NCBI GenBank assembly: GCA_001464455.1
Contig: LNEI01000010.1
Coordinates: forward strand, 62,001 to 126,000
Origin: Acidobacteria bacterium Ga0077534
GTDB lineage: Bacteria > Acidobacteriota > Blastocatellia > Pyrinomonadales > Pyrinomonadaceae
Length of the DNA: 64,000 nucleotides
Direction of reading: 5' to 3'
Below, piece by piece: positions 1,175 through 37,846 of this stretch. The notes under the pieces were generated by a model that worked only from the letters and a program-made list of their open reading frames with translations, had not been told where the DNA came from and did no database searches. Each line of letters starts with the position of its first letter. Positions within the stretch are counted from its first letter, which is position 1. Position numbers and translations under genes: made by a program.

Positions 1175-3217
<2,043 letters not shown>

Positions 3218-3225
3218 TTCTTAAC

Positions 3226-3277
3226 TCCCCTCCTGCCTGAGGAGGGGTGGCACCGCTTCGGTGACGGGGTGGTGGGA
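3226..3277 (+). repeat. Palindromic element family A, copy A1 (intergenic)
   Basis: Two consecutive hairpins: CCCCTCC-N7-GGAGGGG (3227-3247), then CACCG-CTT-CGGTG, followed by ACGGGGTGGTGGGAGC. It lies between the radical SAM stop and its terminator. The same layout occurs at 4301-4361, 8971-9024 and, degraded, at 8254-8307. Confidence 0.8.
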
Positions 3278-3287
3278 GCAGTCATTA

Positions 3288-3325
3288 GAAAAGCCTCGTC
3301 GATCGATCGGCGAGGCTTTTTTGTT
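3288..3325 (+). terminator. Rho-independent terminator of the radical SAM gene
   Basis: AAGCCTCG and CGAGGCTT form a stem around a GATCGATC-type loop and are followed by a T run (3317-3322). It lies 70 bases beyond the radical SAM stop. Confidence 0.8.
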
Positions 3326-3333
3326 GGCAAGAC

Positions 3334-3424
3334 GATAGGACGGAATAGGACGGAATAGGACTCATACGACTGATAAGACCCTTATATGTCCTATCAGTCC
3401 TATCTCGTCCTATCTCGTCCTATC
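3334..3424. repeat. Word-repeat inverted tract (GGACGGAATA type)
   Basis: The left half (about 3334-3378) repeats ataggacgga and ataggactca. The right half (3381-3424) repeats the complement, tcctatctcg and tcctatcagt, so the whole forms a long imperfect hairpin. It abuts the 3' end of the four-helix-bundle gene. Related words recur inside that gene (about 3612-3650) and upstream of it (4064-4111). Confidence 0.75.
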
Positions 3425-3434
3425 AACCACTCAC

Positions 3435-4004
3435 CTAATCCTCACCCCGCCGCTGTTTGTCGCGGCGGGCTAGCCTAGCCTTGTACATATTCTCTTTCAG
3501 CCCGCCGTGTTTAAGAAAGTCCTGCTCCAACCGTTTGATCTGCTGGTCAAGGAGGTAGTTTGTTTGGTGGATCAGGCAGATGATGATGTTGGCGACGGTT
3601 TCGGGTGGGCGGGTTTCGAAATAGGGCCTGTAGGACTCATAAGACTCATTCTCGTCCCGGCCGATCTTTCGAACATACAGAGCCTGTTTCGAATTTTTAT
3701 CCCAAAGCTCGTGCCCGCGAACCCGCAAATAGTCGCGGTAATCCTCCAGCAGCTCTTCCAGACTAGCCCTCGCGACGTTCGTCAGCTTGATCTCAGTTTC
3801 CCGCGAAGTCCCGCTCGCCCGGCTGCCCTCGATAATATTCTGCTTCCCCGACCTAGCCGCCTGCACCATCTGGTCGACCGTCCGCGAATATTTATCGACA
3901 TACCGCTCGCAGAAAAACACCGTCGCATCGTAAACGATCCGCGACTTCTTAAATGAAAGCAGCTCCTCATACCCGCCATGCGGCGGAATAAACCCTTCGC
4001 TCAC
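3435..4004 (-). CDS. Four-helix-bundle protein with suffix domain (23S IVP/S23-like family)
   Basis: About 189 residues. FIPPHGGYEELLSFKKS is followed by a four-helix-bundle core (DQMVQAARSGKQNIIEG is the hallmark) and then a C-terminal suffix helix (IICLIHQTNYLLDQQIKRLE). The family is related to the intervening-sequence (S23) proteins and to the Avd accessory protein of diversity-generating retroelements; its function is unknown. I chose GTG 4004 because the conserved part begins directly after it; a longer frame to 4265 only adds translated repeat sequence. The segment RDENESYESYRPYFE between core and suffix is encoded by the same GGACT/TCCTAT words that flank the gene, so the variable middle appears repeat-derived. 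Confidence 0.8.
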   Translation of the reverse strand: MSEGFIPPHGGYEELLSFKKSRIVYDATVFFCERYVDKYSRTVDQMVQAARSGKQNIIEGSRASGTSRETEIKLTNVARASLEELLEDYRDYLRVRGHELWDKNSKQALYVRKIGRDENESYESYRPYFETRPPETVANIIICLIHQTNYLLDQQIKRLEQDFLKHGGLKENMYKARLARRDKQRRGED

Positions 4005-4063
4005 GCACCCAAGTATACTCACCGCAACCCGCCAATCAAGTTCCAGATCGCATCGATCTTTCG

Positions 4064-4111
4064 CATCGGTCCCATCCGTCTTATTTGTCCCATCTGTCCT
4101 ATATTCTCCAC
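4064..4111. repeat. Word-repeat tract (GTCCCATC type) upstream of the four-helix-bundle gene
   Basis: Reiterated catcggtcc, catccgtct, tatttgtcc, catctgtcc and tatattctc units, about 9 bases each. It matches in style the tract at 3334-3424 on the other side of the gene. Confidence 0.6.
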
Positions 4112-4143
4112 CCGCCGCCTGATCCTGATAACATCTGACCAAG

Positions 4144-4473
4144 ATGTACGTCCGCGACAAACGTTCGCCGGTTCCTAAAAACGAGGCCGTCTCGCGGGTG
4201 ATGAGCGCCAACCGCCCCCAAAACTCCAAGCCCGAAATCCACCTCCGCAAAGCCCTCTGGCACACCGGCCTAAAGGGCTATCGCCTCCACTACAAAATAA
4301 AGCTCCCCTCCCGCCCGAGGAGGGGTGGCACGCGTAATTTGCGTGACGGGGTGGTGGCAGCGGTCCGGCCTGACATCAGCTTCGTCAGCAAAAAACTCGC
4401 GATCTTCGTCCACGGTTGCTTTTGGCACCGCTGCCCGATTCATATTGCGGAAAGAGCAGTAGGTGATATATAA
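4144..4473 (+). pseudogene. Truncated Vsr (very-short-patch-repair) endonuclease carrying palindromic element A2
   Basis: The N-terminal two thirds of a Vsr mismatch endonuclease: VSRVMSANR, SKPEIHLRKALWH, YRLHYK, RPDISF and IFVHGCFWHRC. The Asp of RPDISF and the HGCFWH metal region correspond to family active-site residues. After HRCP the family sequence stops and is replaced by IHIAERAVGDI and a stop at 109 residues, so the C-terminal region with the last zinc Cys is missing. About 20 residues at 52-73 (from SRPRR to GVVAAV) interrupt the normal KLPG-RPDIS junction and are encoded by element A2. Probably a decayed gene; the frame itself is intact. Confidence 0.75.
4301..4361 (+). repeat. 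Palindromic element family A, copy A2, in frame in vsr
   Basis: CCCCTCC-CGCCCGA-GGAGGGG, then the second stem CACGC-N7-GCGTG and GACGGGGTGGTGG. It is in the same orientation as copy A1. It adds about 20 codons to the vsr frame without a stop. Confidence 0.8.
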
Positions 4474-4492
4474 AGGATGCGGAAAATCCGAT

Positions 4493-5314
4493 ATGCCAAA
4501 ATCGAGACAAATCTTACGACGCAACGTTCTTGTTACCATCATGAACAATTCGCGCGACTTTGAGATTGCGAGGGATTGTCATTGGTATCGAATTCCCAAA
4601 GATAGTGTCGATAAGTGGCTTGTAAAATCTTGGCCGCCGGAATGGTTGGCTTTTTACCAGACGAAGGTGTTCGGGAAAGAAGCTCACGCCGTAAACTACT
4701 ACGCGAAAGTCCTGGACATTAAAGAGGTTCCGCGGTCGGAACTATTTGCGGAGCATAGTCGTGGCAAGGACCCGGAAAAGATATATGCGAAGTTAATGCT
4801 TGGCCCCTTGCAGCAATTGCCAGAGCCGATATTCAGCCGACGTTTCCGCCGATTGGTTTTCATACCGACAACATGGAAGAAGTTTTCACAGGCTTTCGAG
4901 ATAAATGACCTCTATGATGAGAGTCCCTTAGAGGATAGGTTGTGGGCGGCATTCAAACGTCTCGAGATTTGTGCAGAGCGTCAGGAGTTTTTCGAAGTTG
5001 ATTCGGAATTTGTCGCGCTCGATTTCGCAATCTATTGTGTGAATGGAAAAGTAAATGTTGAAACGGATGGCGATACCTGGCACGCAAATCCCGAGAAAGC
5101 AGCCAAAGACCGTCGCCGCGACAACGCACTGGTTGTCAGAGGTTGGTCAATTCTCCGATTTGGGACCGCCCTGATAATGGAAGAGTTAGACAAACATTGT
5201 TTGCCCAAAATCGTCAGCACAGTGAACTCATTGGGTGGCCTTGATGACCACGGGCTAAGATCAGGCCGAATCGACCTTAACGACAACGACGCGATCCAAC
5301 CAAGGCTGTTCTAA
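4493..5314 (+). CDS. Putative PD-(D/E)xK endonuclease (DUF559/Vsr-like) with conserved N-terminal domain
   Basis: About 273 residues from ATG 4493; a GTG at 4463 and an ATG at 4541 are alternatives. The N-terminal domain (RNVLVTIMNN, HWYRIP, WPPEWLAFYQTKVFG, AVNYYA, then LGPLQQLP and FIPTTWKKF) is a conserved unit that, as I recall the family, often precedes nuclease domains. The C-terminal part has the restriction-endonuclease-like core: FVALDFAIYC, then NVETDGDTWH, then RRRDNALVVRGWSILRFG, as in DUF559 and Vsr. It starts where the vsr remnant ends, so it may have replaced the vsr C-terminus. A DNA repair or defence role is inferred. Confidence 0.65.
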   Translation: MPKSRQILRRNVLVTIMNNSRDFEIARDCHWYRIPKDSVDKWLVKSWPPEWLAFYQTKVFGKEAHAVNYYAKVLDIKEVPRSELFAEHSRGKDPEKIYAKLMLGPLQQLPEPIFSRRFRRLVFIPTTWKKFSQAFEINDLYDESPLEDRLWAAFKRLEICAERQEFFEVDSEFVALDFAIYCVNGKVNVETDGDTWHANPEKAAKDRRRDNALVVRGWSILRFGTALIMEELDKHCLPKIVSTVNSLGGLDDHGLRSGRIDLNDNDAIQPRLF

Positions 5315-5344
5315 GGCGGGGAATCAGATCCGAAAAGCGCCAAG

Positions 5345-5692
5345 TTATTCCAGATCGAATTTATTCAGGCGAGAGCTGATCGCGGATGGCTGACGAAGAA
5401 AGTGCCGGGCAAGCTTCTGCGTGCTCATCCCGTTTGCGCGCATCAACTTGAGTTCGGCGTCCTCTTTGGGCGACCATTTTTCATAAGCCCGTGGATGCTT
5501 TTCTTTTATTTTCGCCAGCCTTGCTTGGTAGTCAGATTGTGATTCGTTTAATTGAAGTGCTTCCTCCGCTGCGTGAAAGATGTCGAGATACGTAATGCCG
5601 GAATGACCGTCAACAATTTGGGCATAACTTTGGCCTTCCGCAATCAAAGAAAGCACTGCACGGGATTTTGGACTAAGTTGCTTTTCACCCAT
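5345..5692 (-). CDS. Small DNA-binding protein, LuxR-type HTH plus Myb/SANT-like C-terminus
   Basis: 115 residues. The N-terminal LSPKSRAVLSLIAEGQS...ITYLDIFHAAEEAL is a LuxR-like helix-turn-helix. The C-terminal YEKWSPKEDAELKLMRANG...ARHFLRQPSAISSRL is the SANT/Myb-like three-helix motif often seen at the ends of helicases and nucleases. It lies 33 bases downstream of the DUF2075 gene on the same strand and is probably co-transcribed with it. Its target is unknown; it could autoregulate the pair or load the ATPase on DNA. Confidence 0.6.
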   Translation of the reverse strand: MGEKQLSPKSRAVLSLIAEGQSYAQIVDGHSGITYLDIFHAAEEALQLNESQSDYQARLAKIKEKHPRAYEKWSPKEDAELKLMRANGMSTQKLARHFLRQPSAISSRLNKFDLE

Positions 5693-5725
5693 GTTAAATC
5701 ACCTCGGCAGATTAGGGTCGGTTCT

Positions 5726-7714
5726 TTAAATCTCTGGAATTCCAATCTCCTTTAGATATCCATACGTCTCATTATAAAACGCCGGCAGGCGTGTCTTGTC
5801 ATTCGGGTTTCCATCAGGTATGCAAATGACCATTCCCTGACGAGCCCGCGTCAAAAGAACTCGATAGGCATTTTTGAGAAACTGTCGCCGGTCAGATTTC
5901 ATTACTCGATTCCAGGTGTTACCGCGAAAAGAAAACATTCCCCAATCGTCTACTTTGAATCTGAAGTCTGCATCCCACGTCACGCAGGCCCAGTCTACCT
6001 CGAGTCCCTGAACCTGAAATTCTGTTGCCGGATCTTCTAAGAAATACGACGAACGAACATCGTTTTTCCCATCAAGAAACCAGTGAACGGGATTCATCGG
6101 AGCTTTAACATGGATTCCCGTAGCCTTTAGTCGCTCGGCACTTGATGAAGCGAGAAGACCGTATCTTTCGGTTCCACGAGCCTTTTCTCGAAGCCACTCC
6201 TTTGCTCTGTTCAAATCGCGAGTAAGGACAAGCGGGTACTTCTTTTGTATGGATGCAAAAAGTTCCGCCGCCCTTTCGCCTTCTAGATCAAGAACTGCTT
6301 TGACAAAGTCAGACACTTTCTCGGCTCGAAATGAACGCATCGATACTGACAGATGCAAACGTTCATCAAAATGTACATGCTCTTTGTCCTTTATTAAATC
6401 GATCACATGCCCTGCGGCATATTCCGAATCATACAATCGATCCGACAAATAGATTTTCCATGTTGAAAATCTTCGATTTAGCGATTCGATCCATTCTGCA
6501 ATGCCAGCCTCTCCACTATTAATCTCCTGCCCGCCACCGACCAAACAAATAACAACTGCCCAATCTTGATGACGGTCTAGGCAAGAAATTAAGAACTCGG
6601 GTTCAGACTGACTAAAATTATTGATGCGTTTTCGACGCTTCATGAAATTGGCCGTCTGCGTCAGGTTCCAGGCCCGTTGAGCTTCATCAAAAATGGCCAC
6701 GTGATCAACCGGGGCCTTTTCCGTGTCTTTGAGATATTCATCTCGATAGTGATGAACATTCTGAATGAAAGCCTTTATCTCGCCGCGTGCCTTGCCTATT
6801 TTTCTAACCGTCCCCTGTTTCTTAGCACGTTGAACATTATCACGAGCAAGAACTTCGGTTAGCACAGAAACCAAAGGTTGATTACCGGACAAGAAGACGC
6901 TAGGCTCATTTTTTTCATGCCCGAGTTTACGCATCTGCCGTGTTGCAACATCTAACCCGACAAGTGTTTTTCCTGCTCCGGGAACTCCAGTAACGAAACA
7001 AATTATCTTTTCACCACCTTTTTCAGCATTTGCGATTATTTCCGAAATAGCTCTTCCTGTTTCGCGAAGATTTCGCGCGGACGCGTCGGTGCGGGCTATG
7101 TTTTCAACAGAATGCTCCCGGTACAAGGCGGTAGCTGCTTCAATAATTGTCGGTGTCGGCGAATATTGCCCGTCGGCCCACTCGTCAGAATTAATGCCTT
7201 CTGTTTCTTCCAAGGTAAGAACTGCTTCGATTGCGTTTCGTAGGTTGGCAACATTAGCGCATAGTGGTGGAGAAATTAGCCTGTCAGGATCAAGTTTCCA
7301 GTCATTCAATGAGATACCGGACCTTGCCTCCGTCGCTATAAGCACGGGGGCAACAATCGCATCATGACTTGTTTTGTGAAAGTTTTTTAGATCCAGTCCG
7401 TAATCCCAGACTTGCTCTTTTGAACCTCGATCAAATCTTGTCGCACCAACCTTGAACTCAAGAACAAAAATGACGTGCCTGATAATCAGAACGACGTCGA
7501 TTCTGCTTCCCATCCTCGGTATCGAATATTCGAAATACAGACTTCCTGTAAAACCTCCCAAGACATTTCGAAGACACTCAATTTGGAATATCCAAGAATG
7601 CTTTTGCTCCTGAACATCATCAAAGTCACTATTTCTAGCCATGATGCCGAGAATCTCATCCGTTGACTGCTGAGAGAATTGGGCAAACGTGTTTGAATAG
7701 TAAAATCGCTTCAT
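5726..7714 (-). CDS. DUF2075 P-loop ATPase/helicase-like protein with N-terminal nuclease domain
   Basis: 662 residues. The N-terminal region at about 60-92 (YSIPRMGSRIDVVL...FVLEFKVGA) has the D...ExK arrangement of a restriction-like nuclease. The Walker A motif TGVPGAGKTLVGL is near 242-254 and the Walker B-like HVAIFDEAQRAWN near 341. A C-terminal helicase-like core ends with FQVQGLEVDWACV, WNRVMKS and AYRVLLTRARQGMVI, as in DUF2075/schlafen-type ATPases. Such proteins are probable nucleic-acid-dependent nuclease-ATPases and are common in defence islands. The leading gene of a two-gene unit with the HTH protein. Base composition looks more AT-rich than the flanking core genes, which suggests transfer. 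Confidence 0.75.
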   Translation of the reverse strand: MKRFYYSNTFAQFSQQSTDEILGIMARNSDFDDVQEQKHSWIFQIECLRNVLGGFTGSLYFEYSIPRMGSRIDVVLIIRHVIFVLEFKVGATRFDRGSKEQVWDYGLDLKNFHKTSHDAIVAPVLIATEARSGISLNDWKLDPDRLISPPLCANVANLRNAIEAVLTLEETEGINSDEWADGQYSPTPTIIEAATALYREHSVENIARTDASARNLRETGRAISEIIANAEKGGEKIICFVTGVPGAGKTLVGLDVATRQMRKLGHEKNEPSVFLSGNQPLVSVLTEVLARDNVQRAKKQGTVRKIGKARGEIKAFIQNVHHYRDEYLKDTEKAPVDHVAIFDEAQRAWNLTQTANFMKRRKRINNFSQSEPEFLISCLDRHQDWAVVICLVGGGQEINSGEAGIAEWIESLNRRFSTWKIYLSDRLYDSEYAAGHVIDLIKDKEHVHFDERLHLSVSMRSFRAEKVSDFVKAVLDLEGERAAELFASIQKKYPLVLTRDLNRAKEWLREKARGTERYGLLASSSAERLKATGIHVKAPMNPVHWFLDGKNDVRSSYFLEDPATEFQVQGLEVDWACVTWDADFRFKVDDWGMFSFRGNTWNRVMKSDRRQFLKNAYRVLLTRARQGMVICIPDGNPNDKTRLPAFYNETYGYLKEIGIPEI

Positions 7715-7824
7715 TTGTGGCAGTTTTTTCGAATTAGATTCTCACACTAACCGTTAAAAGTGAAATATTAATTCTGTGGTCGATCATGCCGACGCAGGTG
7801 CGGTCGAAGCTGGTTTTCTGACTA

Positions 7825-7880
7825 GCGAATAACGAACAACCAATAACGAATAATGAATAACGGATGACAAATAACGAATA
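7825..7880. repeat. ATAACGAAT word-repeat tract
   Basis: Reiterated, slightly varied gaataacga, caataacga, ataatgaat and aataacgaa units. A further short patch (ggataacgaatagggaatagc) lies near 7938-7958. It occupies most of the 257-bp gap between the DUF2075 gene and the ATPase gene; nothing else is visible there. Confidence 0.55.
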
Positions 7881-7971
7881 TTTTATTTTCCGAGCAGATA
7901 TCGTCGGAATGAGCCGTCGAGGACGCCGGGGGAAAGCGGATAACGAATAGGGAATAGCGAAACACGTTGAG

Positions 7972-9357
7972 CTATTCTCCTTTTAGATATCTTGCAAAAC
8001 TTCCGTCCAGAAAGCCGTCGACGAGGGCGGCTTTGCTGCTGCGGTGGGCTAGGCGTTTTATTTGGCGTTCCTGGGCGAGCTGGGCGGCTTGGGACTCGGC
8101 GGCGTAGTTGCGGAGGTGGTCTTGTTCGGTGGACGGGCCGAGGGGTTTGAGGCCGAGGAAGGGAGTTGGCGGGAGCGGCGAGTGAGGAGTGATGAGTGAC
8201 GGGTTGAGGGTGAGGCCTTGCGTTACCATCTTCGGGAGAACTGCGGCGTTAGCGGCTCCCGCCACCTCGTCAGCTGCGGCGGCCGCCACTCCTCGTTCGT
8301 TAGGATCGGCGCTCGAGGGCAAGCGGGACGCTTGCGATCCAGTCAATTTTTGCGGTTCGGTCTTTTGGAAGCCGGTGGATCTTTCTAATTCGAAGGTTAG
8401 GAGGTTTTCTGCGTGGTGGGTTATCTGGTGGGGTGAGGCGAGGTGTTTTAGGTAGCGGAAGGCGGGGCCGAAGGTGCTGGGGGCGAGGGTGAAGACGGTG
8501 TCGGCCTGCTGGCAGATCTGCGGATTGCCGAGTACGTCGTTCAGGGTCGCGGGCGTCGCACGTCGTTTCTGGCGAGCGGGAACGACGACCATGATCGAGA
8601 GGCCGTAGGTCGCGGCCCAGAGCTTTATCGACTGCATGATCTTGATCGCCCCGGACGCGACCGCGGTGAGGCGTGAGATGTACGAGAGGTCGTCGATGAT
8701 CACGACTTTGGCTTCGGAATCGAAGATGGCGTTTTCGATCGAGCGTTCGAGAAAACGCGCGATGCTCCCTTTGTATTCCGGCGGCAGGTATCCGTCCCAC
8801 TCGATCGCCGAACGGATGAGGTTTGGCGAGAAACGATACTTCACGGGCAGTTTCCCCGGAATAGGAGACGGCACGCTGTACCGCTCCGCCCACTGCCGGG
8901 CGGTGCGTTGGAAGTCGAGGTAGAGAACTTTTCGGGGCACTGTCGGGAGACTTTGGCTCCGTGACGAGAGAACCACCCCGTCAGCCGCGGCGGCTGCCAC
9001 CCCTCCTTCGTAAGGAGGGGAGCTGATGCCTCTGGCGATCGACTCGGCGATCTGGACGGCTAGGAGGCTTTTGCCGACGCCTTTTTGGCCTAGGAGGACG
9101 GCGACTTCGCCTTCGCGCCAGAGCGTGGAGAAGAGTTCGGTCGAGACGGCTTTGCGGTCGACATGTCGCGGCCGCCAGAGATTGGCGCTGCGTGTCGCGA
9201 TCATCGTTTCGGTCGGAAAAGGCTTGGCCGGATTTTTCTTTGCCTCCTTACGCTGCTTTTCATAAGGATCCTTCGGCTGCCAGCCGGCGACATCTTTGTA
9301 ACGGTCGGGTTCGGAGAGGGATTCGTTTTGTGAGTTCACGAACAAGGACTCTAACAT
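7972..9357 (-). CDS. RecA-fold (AAA_25/RepA-like) ATPase carrying inserted palindromic elements
   Basis: 461 residues. The Walker A motif LLGQKGVGKSLLA is at about 87-99, the strand KVLYLDFQ follows, and the Walker B region VVIIDDLSYISR is at about 217-228, then MVVVPARQKRR and DTVFTLAPS, as in RepA-like/AAA_25 ATPases found on plasmids and islands. Residues 112-129 (PPYEGGVAAAAADGVV) are encoded by element A3, placed in the surface region between the Walker A helix and the next strand. Residues about 342-368 come from elements D and A4. The C-terminal tail is low in complexity. No partner helicase or primase is adjacent, so the substrate is unknown. Confidence 0.65.
   Translation of the reverse strand: MLESLFVNSQNESLSEPDRYKDVAGWQPKDPYEKQRKEAKKNPAKPFPTETMIATRSANLWRPRHVDRKAVSTELFSTLWREGEVAVLLGQKGVGKSLLAVQIAESIARGISSPPYEGGVAAAAADGVVLSSRSQSLPTVPRKVLYLDFQRTARQWAERYSVPSPIPGKLPVKYRFSPNLIRSAIEWDGYLPPEYKGSIARFLERSIENAIFDSEAKVVIIDDLSYISRLTAVASGAIKIMQSIKLWAATYGLSIMVVVPARQKRRATPATLNDVLGNPQICQQADTVFTLAPSTFGPAFRYLKHLASPHQITHHAENLLTFELERSTGFQKTEPQKLTGSQASRLPSSADPNERGVAAAAADEVAGAANAAVLPKMVTQGLTLNPSLITPHSPLPPTPFLGLKPLGPSTEQDHLRNYAAESQAAQLAQERQIKRLAHRSSKAALVDGFLDGSFARYLKGE
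8254..8307 (-). repeat. Palindromic element family A, copy A4 (degenerate), in frame in the ATPase gene
   Basis: Read on the minus strand it follows the family A layout: AACGAACGAGGAGTGGC, GGCCGCCGCAGCTGAC, then GAGGTGGCGGGAGCC. Both stems have decayed. It encodes ADPNERGVAAAAADEVAGA, clearly parallel to the residues encoded by copy A3. Confidence 0.6.
8319..8335. repeat. Short palindrome GCAAGCG-GGA-CGCTTGC (family D)
   Basis: Perfect 7-bp arms with a 3-base loop, inside the ATPase gene, where it encodes SQASRLP directly before copy A4. One copy was seen in the window. Confidence 0.5.
8971..9024 (-). repeat. Palindromic element family A, copy A3, in frame in the ATPase gene
   Basis: Read on the minus strand: AGCT, CCCCTCC-TTACGAA-GGAGGGG, TGG, then the second stem CAGCC-GCCGC-GGCTG and ACGGGGTGGTT. 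The first stem and the flanks are the same as in A1 and A2. The second stem has different bases that still pair. Confidence 0.8.
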
Positions 9358-13580: not shown

Positions 13581-14660
13581 TCAGGCCGCTCCTACCGCTT
13601 CGGCTTTTAGCTTTTCGGTTTGGTAATGGGTTCTGAGGGCTTCGACGAATTCGTCGATCTGGCCTTCCATTACGAGTTCGAGCTGGTGGACGGTCATGCC
13701 GATGCGGTGGTCGGTGACTCGATTTTCTTTGAAATTATAAGTGCGGATCTTTTCGCTTCGATCGCCGCTGCCGACCATTGATTTACGCTCGGCTGAGAGT
13801 TCGTCGTGCTGACGCTGCTCTTCCAGTTCCTGCAGACGGGCACGCAGGATTCGCATAGCCTTTTCCTTGTTCTTTATCTGCGACTTTTCGTCCTGCATCG
13901 AAACGACTACGTTCGTCGGCAGGTGTGTGAGACGAACTGCGGAATACGTCGTATTTACCGATTGTCCGCCGGGGCCGGACGAGCAAAAATAATCTACACG
14001 CAGATCCTTCGGATCCACCTGAACATCGACTTCTTCTGCCTCAGGCAGCACGGCAACCGTGATCGCCGACGTATGAATACGGCCCTGAGTTTCGGTCTGC
14101 GGCACGCGTTGGACGCGGTGGACGCCGGATTCGAATCGCATTCTCGAATAAACGTTATCCCCCTCGATGACGGCGGTCGCGTCTTTGATGCCGCCCATGC
14201 CGTTGTCGGACATTTCGAGTATGTCCATTTTCCAGCCCTGGCGTTCGGCGTAGCGGGCGTACATTCGCAGAATTTCCGCTGCAAAGAGGGTCGCCTCGTC
14301 GCCGCCAGTTCCGGCACGGATCTCAAGGATCACGTTCTTCTCGTCGTTCGGGTCTTTTGGCAGGAGGAGCGTCTTTAGCTGCTCTTCAGCCGCCGGCAAT
14401 TTTTCTTCGATCGCGGCGATCTCGAGATTTGCCATCTCGATCATATCCTCGTCATCCGCAAGGGCAAGAAGGTCTTTTGCACCCTGAAGGTCCTCGGTCA
14501 TTTTGCGGACCTCGCGGTATTTTTCGACGATCTCACCGAGGCTGCGGTGCTGCTTCATCAGACGCGCATAGGCCGACATGTCGGACATAAATTCCGGCTG
14601 CGAGATCTGCTCGGTTAGTTCGTCGTAGGATTTTTCGATTTGGGCTAACTTCTCAAACAT
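13581..14660 (-). CDS. prfA: Peptide chain release factor 1
   Basis: 359 residues, full length. It terminates translation at UAA and UAG. GPGGQ with the catalytic GGQ at 231-233 is intact. The codon-recognition loop reads [14 protein letters not shown], keeping the P-x-T of RF1 (RF2 has SPF). It heads a neighbourhood with DUF1385 and rpmE that is conserved in many bacteria. Confidence 0.97.
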
Positions 14661-14671
14661 AAGATTTTTTT

Positions 14672-14740
14672 GCCACGAATTACACGAATGGCACGAATAA
14701 TATTTGCTTCCTAATTCGTGTCATTCGTGCAATTCGTGAC
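14672..14740. repeat. CACGAAT inverted repeat, copy 1
   Basis: The left arm 14672-14698 holds three CACGAAT words; the right arm 14714-14740 holds their complements, giving 27-base arms with few mismatches. It fills the gap between DUF1385 and prfA. A near-identical structure lies at 24707-24774. Confidence 0.85.
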
Positions 14741-24688: not shown

Positions 24689-24706
24689 TAGGCTAAATGA
24701 TATTTA

Positions 24707-24774
24707 GCCACGAATTTCACGAATTACACGAATGAGAAATGCTTTTTATTCGTGCCATTCGTGTAATTCGTGGC
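24707..24774. repeat. CACGAAT inverted repeat, copy 2
   Basis: The left arm 24707-24733 holds CACGAAT words, with complementary ATTCGTG words at 24748-24774. It sits between divergently oriented genes, just upstream of the VOC gene. The in-frame extension upstream of that gene is translated repeat and not protein. Confidence 0.85.
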
Positions 24775-24785
24775 AAAAACACCAA

Positions 24786-25202
24786 ATGAATAATCTATTT
24801 CACCTTGCGTTTCCCGTTCACGATCTCGATGCGGCTCGGGAGTTTTATGGCGGGCTTTTAGGATGTGCTGAGGGGCGGAACTCGGATCGGTGGATCGACT
24901 TTGATCTTTTCGGTCATCAGATAGTGACCCACCTTAACCCGGCGAAGGCTGGCATCGCAATGACAAATCCGGTCGACGGTGACGATGTGCCCGTTCCGCA
25001 TTTTGGCGTGATACTGCCGATGGACGAATGGCGTGAATTTTCGGAACGTTTACGCAGCCAGGGCGTGAAATTTGTCATCGAGCCGCACATTCGCTTTGCA
25101 GGCGAGGTTGGGGAGCAGGCGACGATGTTCTTTCTGGACCCGAGCGGTAACGCGTTGGAATTCAAGGCGTTTGGCGATTTTTCGCAGGTTTTTGCTAAGT
25201 AG
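24786..25202 (+). CDS. VOC (glyoxalase/bleomycin-resistance) family protein
   Basis: 138 residues from ATG 24786. Paired beta-alpha-beta-beta-beta modules: [24 protein letters not shown] and a second half with [30 protein letters not shown]. His6, and Glu near the end (NALEFKAF), fit the metal sites of the fold. The substrate is unknown. Confidence 0.85.
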
Positions 25203-31198: not shown

Positions 31199-31207
31199 GT
31201 TCAACAA

Positions 31208-31317
31208 TGCGGAAGCCCGCACGCAGTGAGGGCTCCCGATAGTTTTGGTATTCGCGAGGCCTTTGCAAGAAACGCGCGGGATCCTCGACGGAGCCTTTAC
31301 TGCGTGCGGGCTTCTGC
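31208..31317. repeat. Palindromic element family C, copy C1; provides the stop of the deaminase gene
   Basis: The left arm 31208-31237 (GCGGAAGCCCGCACGCAGTG...) and the right arm 31290-31317, whose complement reads GCAGAAGCCCGCACGCAGTA, enclose a 52-base centre. The complement of the right arm encodes AEARTQ and the TAA of the gene ending at 31297. The other arm lies just upstream of the dehydrogenase start. Confidence 0.85.
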
Positions 31318-35971: not shown

Positions 35972-36928
35972 ATGAAAACCGCGATTGTCCACCACCCGAT
36001 CTACGCAAAACATGATACCGGTTTTGGCCATCCCGAGACGCCGGTCAGGTATACCGCAGTAATGGAGGCGCTGAAAGAGGATGCCGGCGTTTGGGAGAGC
36101 CTTACGGAGATTACTCCAGAAAAGGCTTCTAAGGGGCTGATACAAGCTGCCCACTCGCCCCAGCACTACAAGCGTGTCGAGGGTGCGATCGAAAGCGGGC
36201 TCGACCGACTCGATGCGGATACCGTTATTTCATTTCAGTCTTTCGATGCGGCGTTAGCGGCGGCCGGCGGGGCGGTCGCGGCGGTCGACGCGGTAATGAG
36301 CGGGAAGGTCGACAACGCATTTGTCGCAGCCCGACCTCCAGGTCATCACGCAACGTCTGAACACGCGATGGGCTTTTGCCTGTTCAATAACGTCGCTGTC
36401 GCGGCGAGGCACGCGCAAAATTACAAAGGTATTGAGCGAGTTGCGATCATTGACTGGGATGTTCACCATGGCAACGGGACGCAGGGGATTTTCTACTCCG
36501 ACCCGACCGTTCATTTTTTCTCGATGCACCAATATCCCTGGTATCCGGGAACGGGCAGCCGCGGCGAATCGGGACAAGGGCGTGGGCTGGGTTCGACGCT
36601 GAATGTACCGGTCAAAGCAAACACCGATTCCCGCGAACAGAAACGAATGTTCGAAGCCGCAATTCAGGATATTTCACGTAACTTCCAGCCGGACTTCATC
36701 TTCATCTCGGCCGGTTTCGATGGCCACCTGACCGACCCGCTCGGCCAACTACGGCTCGAAAATGACGACTATATTTCGATGACGAAAACCGTAATGGACT
36801 GGGCAAACGAGGCCTGCGATGGGCGAATCGTGTCGGTGCTGGAAGGCGGTTACAACCTGGATACGTTGGGCGGAACTGTAAAAGCCCACGTGGCGGCAAT
36901 GTCCACTGCGGAAGCCCGCACGAAGTAA
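35972..36928 (+). CDS. Histone deacetylase-fold amidohydrolase (1)
   Basis: 318 residues from ATG 35972 (a GTG is just upstream). A zinc-dependent deacetylase of the HDAC/acetylpolyamine amidohydrolase family: RPPGHHA, IIDWDVHHGNGTQ with the zinc Asp and His, FISAGFDGH, and LEGGYNLDTL. The bacterial substrate may be acetylpolyamine or acetyl-lysine. Divergent from the hydroxyproline operon. The last residues TAEARTK and the TAA are encoded by element C2, so the native C-terminus has been replaced. Confidence 0.88.
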   Translation: MKTAIVHHPIYAKHDTGFGHPETPVRYTAVMEALKEDAGVWESLTEITPEKASKGLIQAAHSPQHYKRVEGAIESGLDRLDADTVISFQSFDAALAAAGGAVAAVDAVMSGKVDNAFVAARPPGHHATSEHAMGFCLFNNVAVAARHAQNYKGIERVAIIDWDVHHGNGTQGIFYSDPTVHFFSMHQYPWYPGTGSRGESGQGRGLGSTLNVPVKANTDSREQKRMFEAAIQDISRNFQPDFIFISAGFDGHLTDPLGQLRLENDDYISMTKTVMDWANEACDGRIVSVLEGGYNLDTLGGTVKAHVAAMSTAEARTK

Positions 36929-37048
36929 GGGCTCCCTCCGGAGGGAGACTGTGTCCTAGCAAATAGAAGGGTTATTAACGAACCTTTCTTCGTACTTATC
37001 AGCTTGGTTTTTCGTCGAGGGAGCCCTCACTTCGTGCGGCCCTCTGCA
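36907..37048. repeat. Palindromic element family C, copy C2; provides the stop of the HDAC-fold gene
   Basis: The left arm 36907-36935 (TGCGGAAGCCCGCACGAAGT..., then AAGGGCTCCC) and the right arm 37018-37048 (GGGAGCCCTCACTTCGTGCG, then GCCCTCTGCA), with an 80-base centre that has no visible gene. The TAA at 36926-36928 lies within the left arm. Confidence 0.85.
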
Positions 37049-37051
37049 TTA

Positions 37052-37846
37052 TTAAAAAAGCGACTTAGTCCAACCACCATCGACAGCGATCGAATTTCCG
37101 GTCATATAGCTCGCCCGTTCAGATACCAGAAACGCCGCCAGAGCGGCAAATTCTCTAGGTTCGCCGAGGCGACGCATCGGGATCTCCGAATGCCACCGAT
37201 CCTTGACCTGATCGGGCGAAATATTCTCCTTGTTAGCGATAAACTCGATCAATTCTTCGAGACGCTCGGTTCTTGTGTAGCCGGGAAGGATGTTATTAAC
37301 GGTCACGCCGTCGGCAGCGACCTCGTTTGCGAGGGTTTTGGCGAATCCTGTGACCGCCGCTCGTAAACTGTTGGAGAGCATTAGGTTGTCGACTGGCTGT
37401 TTTGATGCGATCGACGTGATGTTGAGGATGCGTCCCCATTTCCGTTCTTTCATGCCTGGAAGGACGAGCCGCGTAAATCGGACCACACTTGATAGTAGGA
37501 TCTGCGTGGCTTCATCCCACGAGGCCTCGCTCAATCCATCAAAATTACCGGCGGGAGGGCCTCCGCTGTTGGTTACGAGAATGTCGACGCGACCAAATTT
37601 TTCTAGAGCGGCCGTGACGATGCGTTCGATATCGGCCGATACCGAAACATCGCCAGCTACCCCGAGAATTTCCGCTTCATGCCGAGAGCGTATCGATGCC
37701 GCCGCTTGTTCGATCGATACGGCACGACGCGAACAGATGACGAGCGAACAGCCTTCTGCGGCGAGCTCATCAGCAACCGCAAAGCCTAACCCCTGACTCG
37801 CCGCGCAGACCAGGGCGACTTTTCCTTTCAATCCGAGATCCATCAT
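37052..37846 (-). CDS. SDR-fold oxidoreductase with atypical active site
   Basis: 264 residues from ATG 37846 (ATGATG overlaps the cupin stop). A Rossmann start (ALVCAASQGLGFAVADELA) and LVTNSGGPP. The ending YMTGNSIAVDGGWTKS is as in FabG-like reductases. The usual YxxxK is replaced by DNLMLSNSLRAAV: no Tyr, and Arg instead of Lys, a feature of one SDR subgroup. The substrate is unknown. Co-transcribed with the cupin; the 3' end abuts element C2. Confidence 0.82.
   Translation of the reverse strand: MMDLGLKGKVALVCAASQGLGFAVADELAAEGCSLVICSRRAVSIEQAAASIRSRHEAEILGVAGDVSVSADIERIVTAALEKFGRVDILVTNSGGPPAGNFDGLSEASWDEATQILLSSVVRFTRLVLPGMKERKWGRILNITSIASKQPVDNLMLSNSLRAAVTGFAKTLANEVAADGVTVNNILPGYTRTERLEELIEFIANKENISPDQVKDRWHSEIPMRRLGEPREFAALAAFLVSERASYMTGNSIAVDGGWTKSLF

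Follow-up and report, generated by a model that had tools for sequence, protein, structure and literature searches.

A 64,000-nucleotide stretch of Acidobacteria bacterium Ga0077534 (contig LNEI01000010.1, positions 62,001 to 126,000, forward strand), hereafter the window, carries copies of a palindromic double-hairpin element, the scaffold family, which we read as the ends of a mobile element that encodes a nuclease, together with its non-autonomous derivatives, with a DUF559 nuclease as presumed mobiliser and with ends recognised by their shape. On the sequence comparisons reported below, we assign to this reading a probability of about 0.57. Taken by itself, the association between element and DUF559 nuclease is very probable, and the family is very widespread, occurring in about ten phyla and not being special to Acidobacteriota.

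The scaffold consists, in order, of CCCCTCC, a loop, GGAGGGG, TG(G), a variable stem-loop and (A)CGGGGTGGT, the variable stem being bracketed by two GGGGTG(G) strings. In the source genome (G000; 4.2 Mb in 32 contigs) a strict pattern, GGAGGGGTGGC-N6..30-GACGGGGTGGT, returned 40 exact matches and a looser one, GGAGGGGTG-N4..34-CGGGGTGGT, returned 84, with no match to the reversed pattern, used as control, in either search; a sequence-only reading of the window had proposed a palindromic family of a mobile type, and these counts bear it out. Adjacent copies are often inverted pairs with the tails inward (C12:21443+/21537-, C18:312810+/312910- and C27:64988+/65082-), and some copies stand in arrays that repeat about every 190-220 bp.

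Both patterns leave the centre of the element unspecified, thus making the pairing of the second stem an independent test. This stem is too variable in length for a covariance model, which was therefore substituted by the scaffold pattern with a free centre, followed by pair counting. At least 4 bp were found in 81 of the 84 G000 copies (35 distinct) and in 79 of the 92 distinct genus copies among the matches listed (first places per relative, part of the total), against a mean of 22 and a maximum of 35 when arms were swapped; the other 13 include short forms with 3 bp as well as copies that pair poorly. Stem 2 measures 3-10 bp, mostly with a G-C pair first, and the longest clean stems reach 10 bp. 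Copies with the common loop GTCTTTT carry very different arms, and among the genus copies listed whole stems are swapped out, beyond single-pair changes. When 28 distinct 35-nt copies were aligned, 94% of cells were paired (76% in shuffles, at most 49% in slid controls) and two-sided change was seen at 5 of 6 pairs, a score reached by 0 of 500 shuffles. The compensatory variation originally claimed is thus upheld: second stems stay paired and the distribution is not that of random GC-rich hairpins.

To look for linked genes, open reading frames (ORFs) were clustered at 161 of 193 element-bearing loci, leaving out those of the source genome and presetting no candidate. The leading cluster, also the largest to cross phyla, comprised 14 loci, with a DUF559 domain at 11 distinct places and a median distance of 0, and most of its genes are flanked by two inverted copies, L181 being an exception. 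A PF04480 search of 40 genomes picked by kinship detected 15 strong genes (above 90 bit) in 11 of the 13 genomes of the genus; with a relaxed pattern, scaffold copies were present on both sides of 12, on one side of 2 and on neither side of the last (L293, inside HsdR). At 70 bit or more, strong DUF559 occurred in 12 of 14 element-bearing versus 4 of 26 element-free genomes (p = 2e-5, shared ancestry uncorrected). Outside the genus, scaffold-like copies were found on both sides of ten DUF559 domains, belonging to Bacteroidota, Actinomycetota, Planctomycetota, Bacillota, Gammaproteobacteria, a distant family of Acidobacteriota, two viral contigs and one unclassified bacterium, and on both sides of 6 of 22 in a further set. 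Flanking inverted repeats were also scored blind to the scaffold: a score of at least 40 was obtained for 39 of a first 57 domains, whose loci were partly chosen for elements, and for 17 of the 22 further ones, while no shuffle reached 40 and the highest same-locus control of the 57-domain test was 38.

The highest score of that test (109) belongs to L409, from the genome of a Rickettsiales metagenome-assembled genome (MAG) record (L123), where a DUF559 gene lies between long, hairpin-bearing inverted repeats. This locus might bear on the origin of the Rickettsia palindromic elements.

Nuclease subtype tracks the length of the stem-1 loop across phyla, as judged from 41 DUF559 domains with readable motif and stem-1 head. 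FDRQK nucleases go with loops of 2-3 nt in 7 of 7 cases, and of 34 nucleases of the other types 31 have long ones (p = 5e-6); outside the genus the split is 7/0 versus 3/17 (p = 1.4e-4). In a later set, judged by eye, short loops were again found with the FDRQ-type nucleases whose heads are readable, and long loops with L519 and L528 (FxRQH), with L522 (FWRQV, short loop) as an exception. The Chryseobacterium units L516-L518 combine FDRQR with short loops; the stems of L518, CAAAAATTT..AAATTTTTG and CGAAAATTC..GAATTTTTG, are AT-rich and resemble a dispersed copy of the same genome (L089), a stem of this kind lies on one side of L517, and L516 is more diverged.

Concerning the nuclease itself, a search of its profile against the PDB gave 3hrl with E 2.5e-31 and, with E 5.6e-4, 3r3p, a protein of a mobile intron, and the invariant residues (A2) include E63, D92, E103, D105, G106 and H109, among others. 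Vsr acts on T:G mismatches, and it can be speculated that the head CCCCTCC, by pairing with the tail GGGGTGG, would yield a T:G pair. Caulobacter VsrA (DUF559) has been described as a Vsr-like PD-(D/E)XK endonuclease to which the SOS response of cells without a cytosine methylase is due (PMC12907096), and a DUF559 gene has been placed in the EDxHD homing family (PMC9403480). Among the listed titles and abstract openings, a coverage that mostly leaves out subscription journals and preprint servers, none ties DUF559 to palindromic repeats.

Mapping and folding of the scaffold in the window resulted in three good copies and a decayed one, with the following features.

3227-3273, + strand: copy 1, with stem 1 CCCCTCC (3227-3233), loop TGCCTGA and GGAGGGG (3241-3247), then TGG, and a tail running to 3273; intergenic, 3' of an ORF ending at 3217
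3251-3255/3259-3263, + strand: stem 2 of copy 1, CACCG/CGGTG
4305-4355, + strand: copy 2, with stem 1 at 4305-4311/4319-4325 and tail to 4355
4329-4333/4341-4345, + strand: stem 2 of copy 2, CACGC/GCGTG
4144-4473, + strand: host gene of copy 2, a Vsr-like endonuclease (PF03852), with the copy in frame
8972-9020, - strand: copy 3, with stem-1 loop TTACGAA, stem 2 CAGCC/GGCTG and tail GACGGGGTGGT at 8972-8982
7972-9357, - strand: host gene of copy 3 and of the decayed copy, an AAA_25 ATPase (Pfam), with both in frame
about 8262-8306 (limits approximate), - strand: decayed fourth copy, within the ATPase gene 7972-9357, peptide ERGVAAAAADEVAG

All three copies reported by the sequence-only reading, with their shared stem CCCCTCC/GGAGGGG and common tail, were recovered; their second stems read as it had given them, and copies 2, 3 and the degraded fourth do lie in frame inside genes. 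GACGGGGTGGT has exactly three exact occurrences in the window, one per copy, and a fourth, outside the copies, with one mismatch, giving four matches at up to one mismatch (shuffle mean 0.89). Folded as single-stranded DNA, copies 1, 2, 3 and the decayed one gave z values of -3.57, -1.89, -3.48 and -1.57, respectively; in the minimum-energy fold of copy 1, part of stem 2 pairs with the tail, replacing the simple stem. Copy 1 is flanked by a stop codon on one side and a terminator-like hairpin on the other, and was not seen in any of 18 readable orthologous downstream stretches (a 19th had no sequence left). Pfam matches the Vsr domain of the copy 2 host in two stretches. No Rfam family reached its gathering score anywhere in the window. 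The complete nuclease unit is absent from the window, that of the source genome being at G000:C25 (L030/L301).

The Vsr gene is adjoined by an ORF (4463-5314, + strand) for a weak DUF559/MTES_1575 nuclease-like protein and, at 5726-7714 (- strand), a Schlafen group 3 helicase is encoded, so that copies 2 and 3 possibly sit in a defence island. The window holds further repeats: another family, GCGGAAGCCCGCACG..AGTGAGGGCTCCC, occurs in both orientations at 31205-31237, 31287-31317, 36904-36938 and 37017-37056, and more repeats, inverted and dispersed, of 71 nt at 79% and of the GCCACGAATTACACGAATGGCACGAA type, at 25215-25285/32818-32888 and at 14658-14709 and 24703-24788.

In the source genome as a whole, 48 of the 84 copies fall within ORFs that are 180 aa or longer and extend 30 aa or more beyond the copy on either side, a count that includes arrays and antisense ORFs and overstates real genes. 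Besides the Vsr and AAA_25 genes of the window, hosts backed by Pfam are AtuA (L001), AMP-binding enzymes (L019, L025), peptidase M1 (L449), an amidohydrolase (L017) and a permease (L018); inverted pairs are in frame in NAD(P)H-hydrate dehydratase (L026) and an Eco57I methylase (L450), and another lies, in the same frame, between two CoaBC domains (L012/L013). RluD (L036) was recognised by alignment, and Pfam detected nothing in two of the copy-bearing ORFs tried (L021, L452). The RluD loop before GIVHRLDKDTSG was compared in 13 species of the genus (L323-L335): its length and content vary, always in frame. Only L323 and L327 hold a scaffold element there, and their stems differ; three species have sequence resembling GAACCGCC..GGCGGTTC, five have sequence resembling AATTCC/AATCTGGAAT, and the rest have others. 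Homing to a single RluD site was thus discarded, the loop looking permissive rather than like a homing target. In L328 it is filled by sequence resembling the GCGGAAGCCCGCACG..AGTGAGGGCTCCC repeat of the window. Comparison of RluD, ATPase and L147 orthologues did not reveal any clean empty site.

DUF559 domains are themselves found in open frame inside genes, namely leucyl-tRNA synthetase (LeuRS; L387, L391, L407, L490, L493), a class I synthetase by Pfam that we name ValRS-like from its sequence (L389), methionine synthase (MetH; L386, L390, L515), HsdR (L293, L494, L496), HsdS (L294), HsdM (L504), Type ISP enzymes (L080, L488) and other methylases (L113, L489, L491). Two more, the only ones in an intein-like context, lie in FAD-binding proteins that contain a segment resembling an intein (L295, L305), Pfam Hint_2 being found only in L305. 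The domain closes a GATase_5 ORF in L499 and lies upstream of an amidohydrolase in L388. Many of these in-gene domains carry other palindromes or none detected, and in L387, L490 and L493 the flanking inverted repeats were not above shuffles. No splicing domain is found by Pfam together with DUF559 in the LeuRS, ValRS-like and MetH genes. In LeuRS the insert is placed in one and the same loop in three genera, ahead of the editing domain, and L389 has it there too. In MetH the sites of L386 and L390 differ, the site filled in one being empty in the other. For the MetH comparison 147 of 148 genomes were matched and 30 loci fetched: the site is filled in C. takakiae (L386) and empty in the 29 other Chryseobacterium loci, with 720 nt versus 264 nt, a net in-frame gain of 456 nt (152 codons). 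L386 is a related unit, with palindromes of another scaffold.

Distribution was surveyed by a scan of 297 genomes of the phylum, in which the reversed control gave one match in each of 2 genomes. All 13 genomes of the genus hold 3-84 scaffold matches, none of the six from other genera of the family holds any, and in the rest of the phylum 18 matches were found in a distant family (G198) and one each in two other genomes. A named cross-phylum scan yielded at least 118 stretches with matches; among the matches listed, 101 of 150 are preceded by a stem-1 arm (CCTCC, no more than 30 nt upstream), pairing is found in 62 of 109 distinct centres (mean 9 and maximum 18 under the null), and stem 1 is visible in Acidobacteriota, Bacteroidota (including isolates), Chlamydiota, Planctomycetota, Verrucomicrobiota/Lentisphaerota, Bacillota, Actinomycetota, Deferribacterota, Pseudomonadota and Patescibacteria. 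Bearers other than Bacteroidota are nearly all MAGs, thus making binning errors possible. Matches in Streptomyces lack both stems and look like chance. Viral contigs added 105 stretches, with 50 of 101 distinct centres pairing (null mean 8). Stem 2 often differs between hosts, being of CAGCC types in the source genus and CAAAAATTC/GAATTTTTG in copies from Chryseobacterium; second stems of a short CCC..GGG form recur across many hosts, and an Acidobacteriota record (L109) has loop and tail flank identical to those of copy 3. At one intergenic site of Chryseobacterium (L413-L442) the copy is present in 23 of 30 orthologous loci, those that matched best, with loop TTT in 20, AAA in 2 (L415, L427) and TTC in 1. 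In-frame palindromes had been put forward as new to this phylum, with Rickettsia as the precedent. The in-frame family is real but not phylum-specific, and Rickettsia proves too narrow a precedent, since intragenic in-frame palindromes outside that genus are described in PMC3733652.

These data can be accommodated in a model in which the complete unit, about 450-700 bp in the cases seen, would be made of an element (+), a short DUF559 gene (EDxHD/Vsr-like, PD-(D/E)XK type) and an element (-), tails inward, the window copies being its terminal palindromes, mostly orphaned. The nuclease, which we infer to mobilise the element, would recognise the invariant bases of the ends by sequence and stem 2 by shape, and would then cut DNA; host repair would paste in the unit, or the ends alone as derivatives resembling miniature inverted-repeat transposable elements (MITEs), without target duplication. 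A stem 2 read by shape would be free to drift in sequence and length while its arms pair, and survival of frame-keeping insertions in permissive loops would explain the in-frame copies.

Several observations weigh against this model. No strong flanking repeat was found at 18 of 57 and 5 of 22 DUF559 domains, and in Bacteroidota, sampled without choosing for elements, DUF559 occurs in 109 of 198 genomes, being so common that bare cross-phylum co-occurrence is weak evidence. From that sample 28 best loci were newly fetched (3 at contig edges, 25 scored): 6 of 25 had inverted repeats scoring at least 40 and 19 of 25 beat their own shuffles, the arms being mostly palindromes of other scaffolds (CCCTCTCC..GGAGAGGG-like). 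Strong DUF559 is missing from two copy-poor genomes of the genus (G181, G219) and from 11 of 50 element-bearing named genomes, 6 of which have no match at all. The sole DUF559 found in C. takakiae is the one in MetH, with other palindromes, despite scaffold copies in that genome, and its insertion shows no target duplication, replaces about 33 nt of host linker and has degenerate ends. Finally, the subtype match is uncorrected for shared ancestry, and the single-sequence AlphaFold model of the nuclease has a predicted local distance difference test (pLDDT) value of 37.

Some of these points would also be expected if the palindromes were moved in trans by another enzyme, for instance a Y1/RAYT transposase, the DUF559 gene being cargo or a caught target: some DUF559 genes are unflanked by repeats, the source genome has 10 Y1_Tnp matches and REP-type palindromes are linked to RAYTs (PMC3733652). 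Within the fetched 1.5 kb, however, scaffold strings bracket none of the 10 Y1_Tnp loci, for which reason a RAYT was set aside as mobiliser, and a copy on one side occurs in 2 of 10, about 0.9-1 kb distant; moreover, nuclease and element subtypes match across phyla and the flanking geometry recurs in unrelated hosts. We regard such hitchhiking as unlikely. Two of the Y1 (RAYT-like) transposase genes were seen at L036 and L037, and sequence beside the latter, encoding GQDARAP/AGTLPA-type peptides, may be a separate REP family of the source genome.

Pairing could instead persist without selection or recognition if hairpin-templated synthesis copied one arm to the other. The replacement of whole second stems, beyond single pairs, and the AAA in place of TTT at two Chryseobacterium loci, as from inversion of the hairpin, fit such template switching, although replacement by another copy could also produce AAA loops, some copies do decay (the fourth of the window; 13 of the 92 listed genus copies with less than 4 bp, some of them short forms) and the invariant scaffold, its spread and the nuclease arrangement are left unexplained. 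As a rival it is also rather unlikely; being compatible with the nuclease reading, it may help keep the stems paired. A function at RNA level, with copies kept for transcript stability or termination and pairing selected in the RNA, would agree with the setting of copy 1 and with the intergenic copy kept in Chryseobacterium, but coding genes contain copies in both orientations, the genus does not conserve copy 1 and no Rfam family reaches its gathering score in the window, making this explanation highly improbable. That the copies are random GC-rich hairpins forming no family can be practically dismissed: stem 1 alone (GGAGGGGTG, up to one mismatch) is indeed unenriched in the window (10 matches, 9.47 expected), yet it is refuted by the counts over the whole genome, where controls gave no or almost no matches, and by the pairing against arm-swap and shuffle nulls.

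If the nuclease reading holds, it would account for odd peptides in predicted proteins, PPYEGGV..DGVV being one, and a shape-recognised hairpin of free sequence would be a useful model of structure-read DNA. In Di Nocera et al. (PMC3733652) the mover of palindromic repeats without a dedicated transposase is left open; for one very widespread family of them, DUF559 is a specific candidate that can be put to the test, with a match between enzyme and repeat subtypes. In-frame nuclease domains are also flagged in leucyl-tRNA synthetase and methionine synthase genes without a Pfam-detected intein domain. It is conceivable, at somewhat less than even odds, that these units form a new class of bacterial mobile elements, having a single-domain EDxHD/Vsr-type nuclease, shape-recognised palindromic double-hairpin ends, in-frame insertion into essential genes without a splicing domain and orphan hairpins seeded in many phyla, and embracing several common GC-rich palindromes (CCCTCTCC..GGAGAGGG types and others around DUF559 genes).

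Among known systems, the CGTC-tagged REPs, which include RPE-4/RPE-6 of Rickettsia and dRS3 of Neisseria, share several traits with the scaffold family, as described in Di Nocera 2013 (PMC3733652): the palindromes are short and GC-rich, often form inverted dimers and lie in frame within genes, their stem changes are complementary, they occur in several phyla and no transposase is assigned to them. CCCCGTC precedes the stem on the reverse strand in 47 of 84 G000 copies, and many reverse strands read CGTC..CCA. Membership was nevertheless rejected on tag and stem: the C of the apparent CGTC pairs in stem 2 instead of being an unpaired tag, the motif (GACGGGG) is missing in 37 of 84 copies, those of CCCG..CGGG type being without CGTC, and stems are of 3-10 bp and not of 8-9 bp with A/T pairs in the first two positions. 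The CCA-type tail is given, reversed, by TGG-type copies but not by TGC- and TGT-type ones. The invariant part is here an additional hairpin, CCCCTCC/GGAGGGG, plus GGGGTG...CGGGGTGG and, unlike those REPs as described there, the family has a linked gene.

Orphan palindromes, inverted pairs and an autonomous unit with an enzyme between palindromes recall the GTAG REPs/REPINs of the same source, whose enzyme is a Y1 HUH transposase and not a PD-(D/E)XK-type nuclease; the invariant scaffold has no GTAG, the tag of RAYT-mobilised REPs, and a Y1 gene flanked by palindromes was found at 0 of 10 source-genome loci. Mitochondrial double-hairpin elements and GC clusters are likewise mobile, with one or two hairpins, and intron endonucleases have been proposed to aid GC-cluster movement, but they are organellar and the available parts of PMC4478555 and PMC2800124 describe no nuclease gene between hairpins. 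As in MITEs and DNA transposons, there are inverted terminal repeats with deleted derivatives, and units and short pairs alike have their tails inward, from which we infer that the short pairs derive from nuclease units; a target-site duplication is not present at the sole resolved site (MetH, with ends of another scaffold). The EDxHD homing endonucleases (I-Bth0305I, PDB 3r3p) have a homologous nuclease domain. Introns and inteins are the context of these enzymes and of DUF559 domains in what is available of PMC3943268 and PMC9403480, a context shared here by the intein-like L295 and L305. The same loop is used in LeuRS of three genera and in a ValRS-like enzyme of a fourth, but two sites are used in MetH, and the units described here differ from the homing endonucleases in having inverted palindromic ends, dispersed orphan ends and, often, an in-frame position without a Pfam splicing domain.

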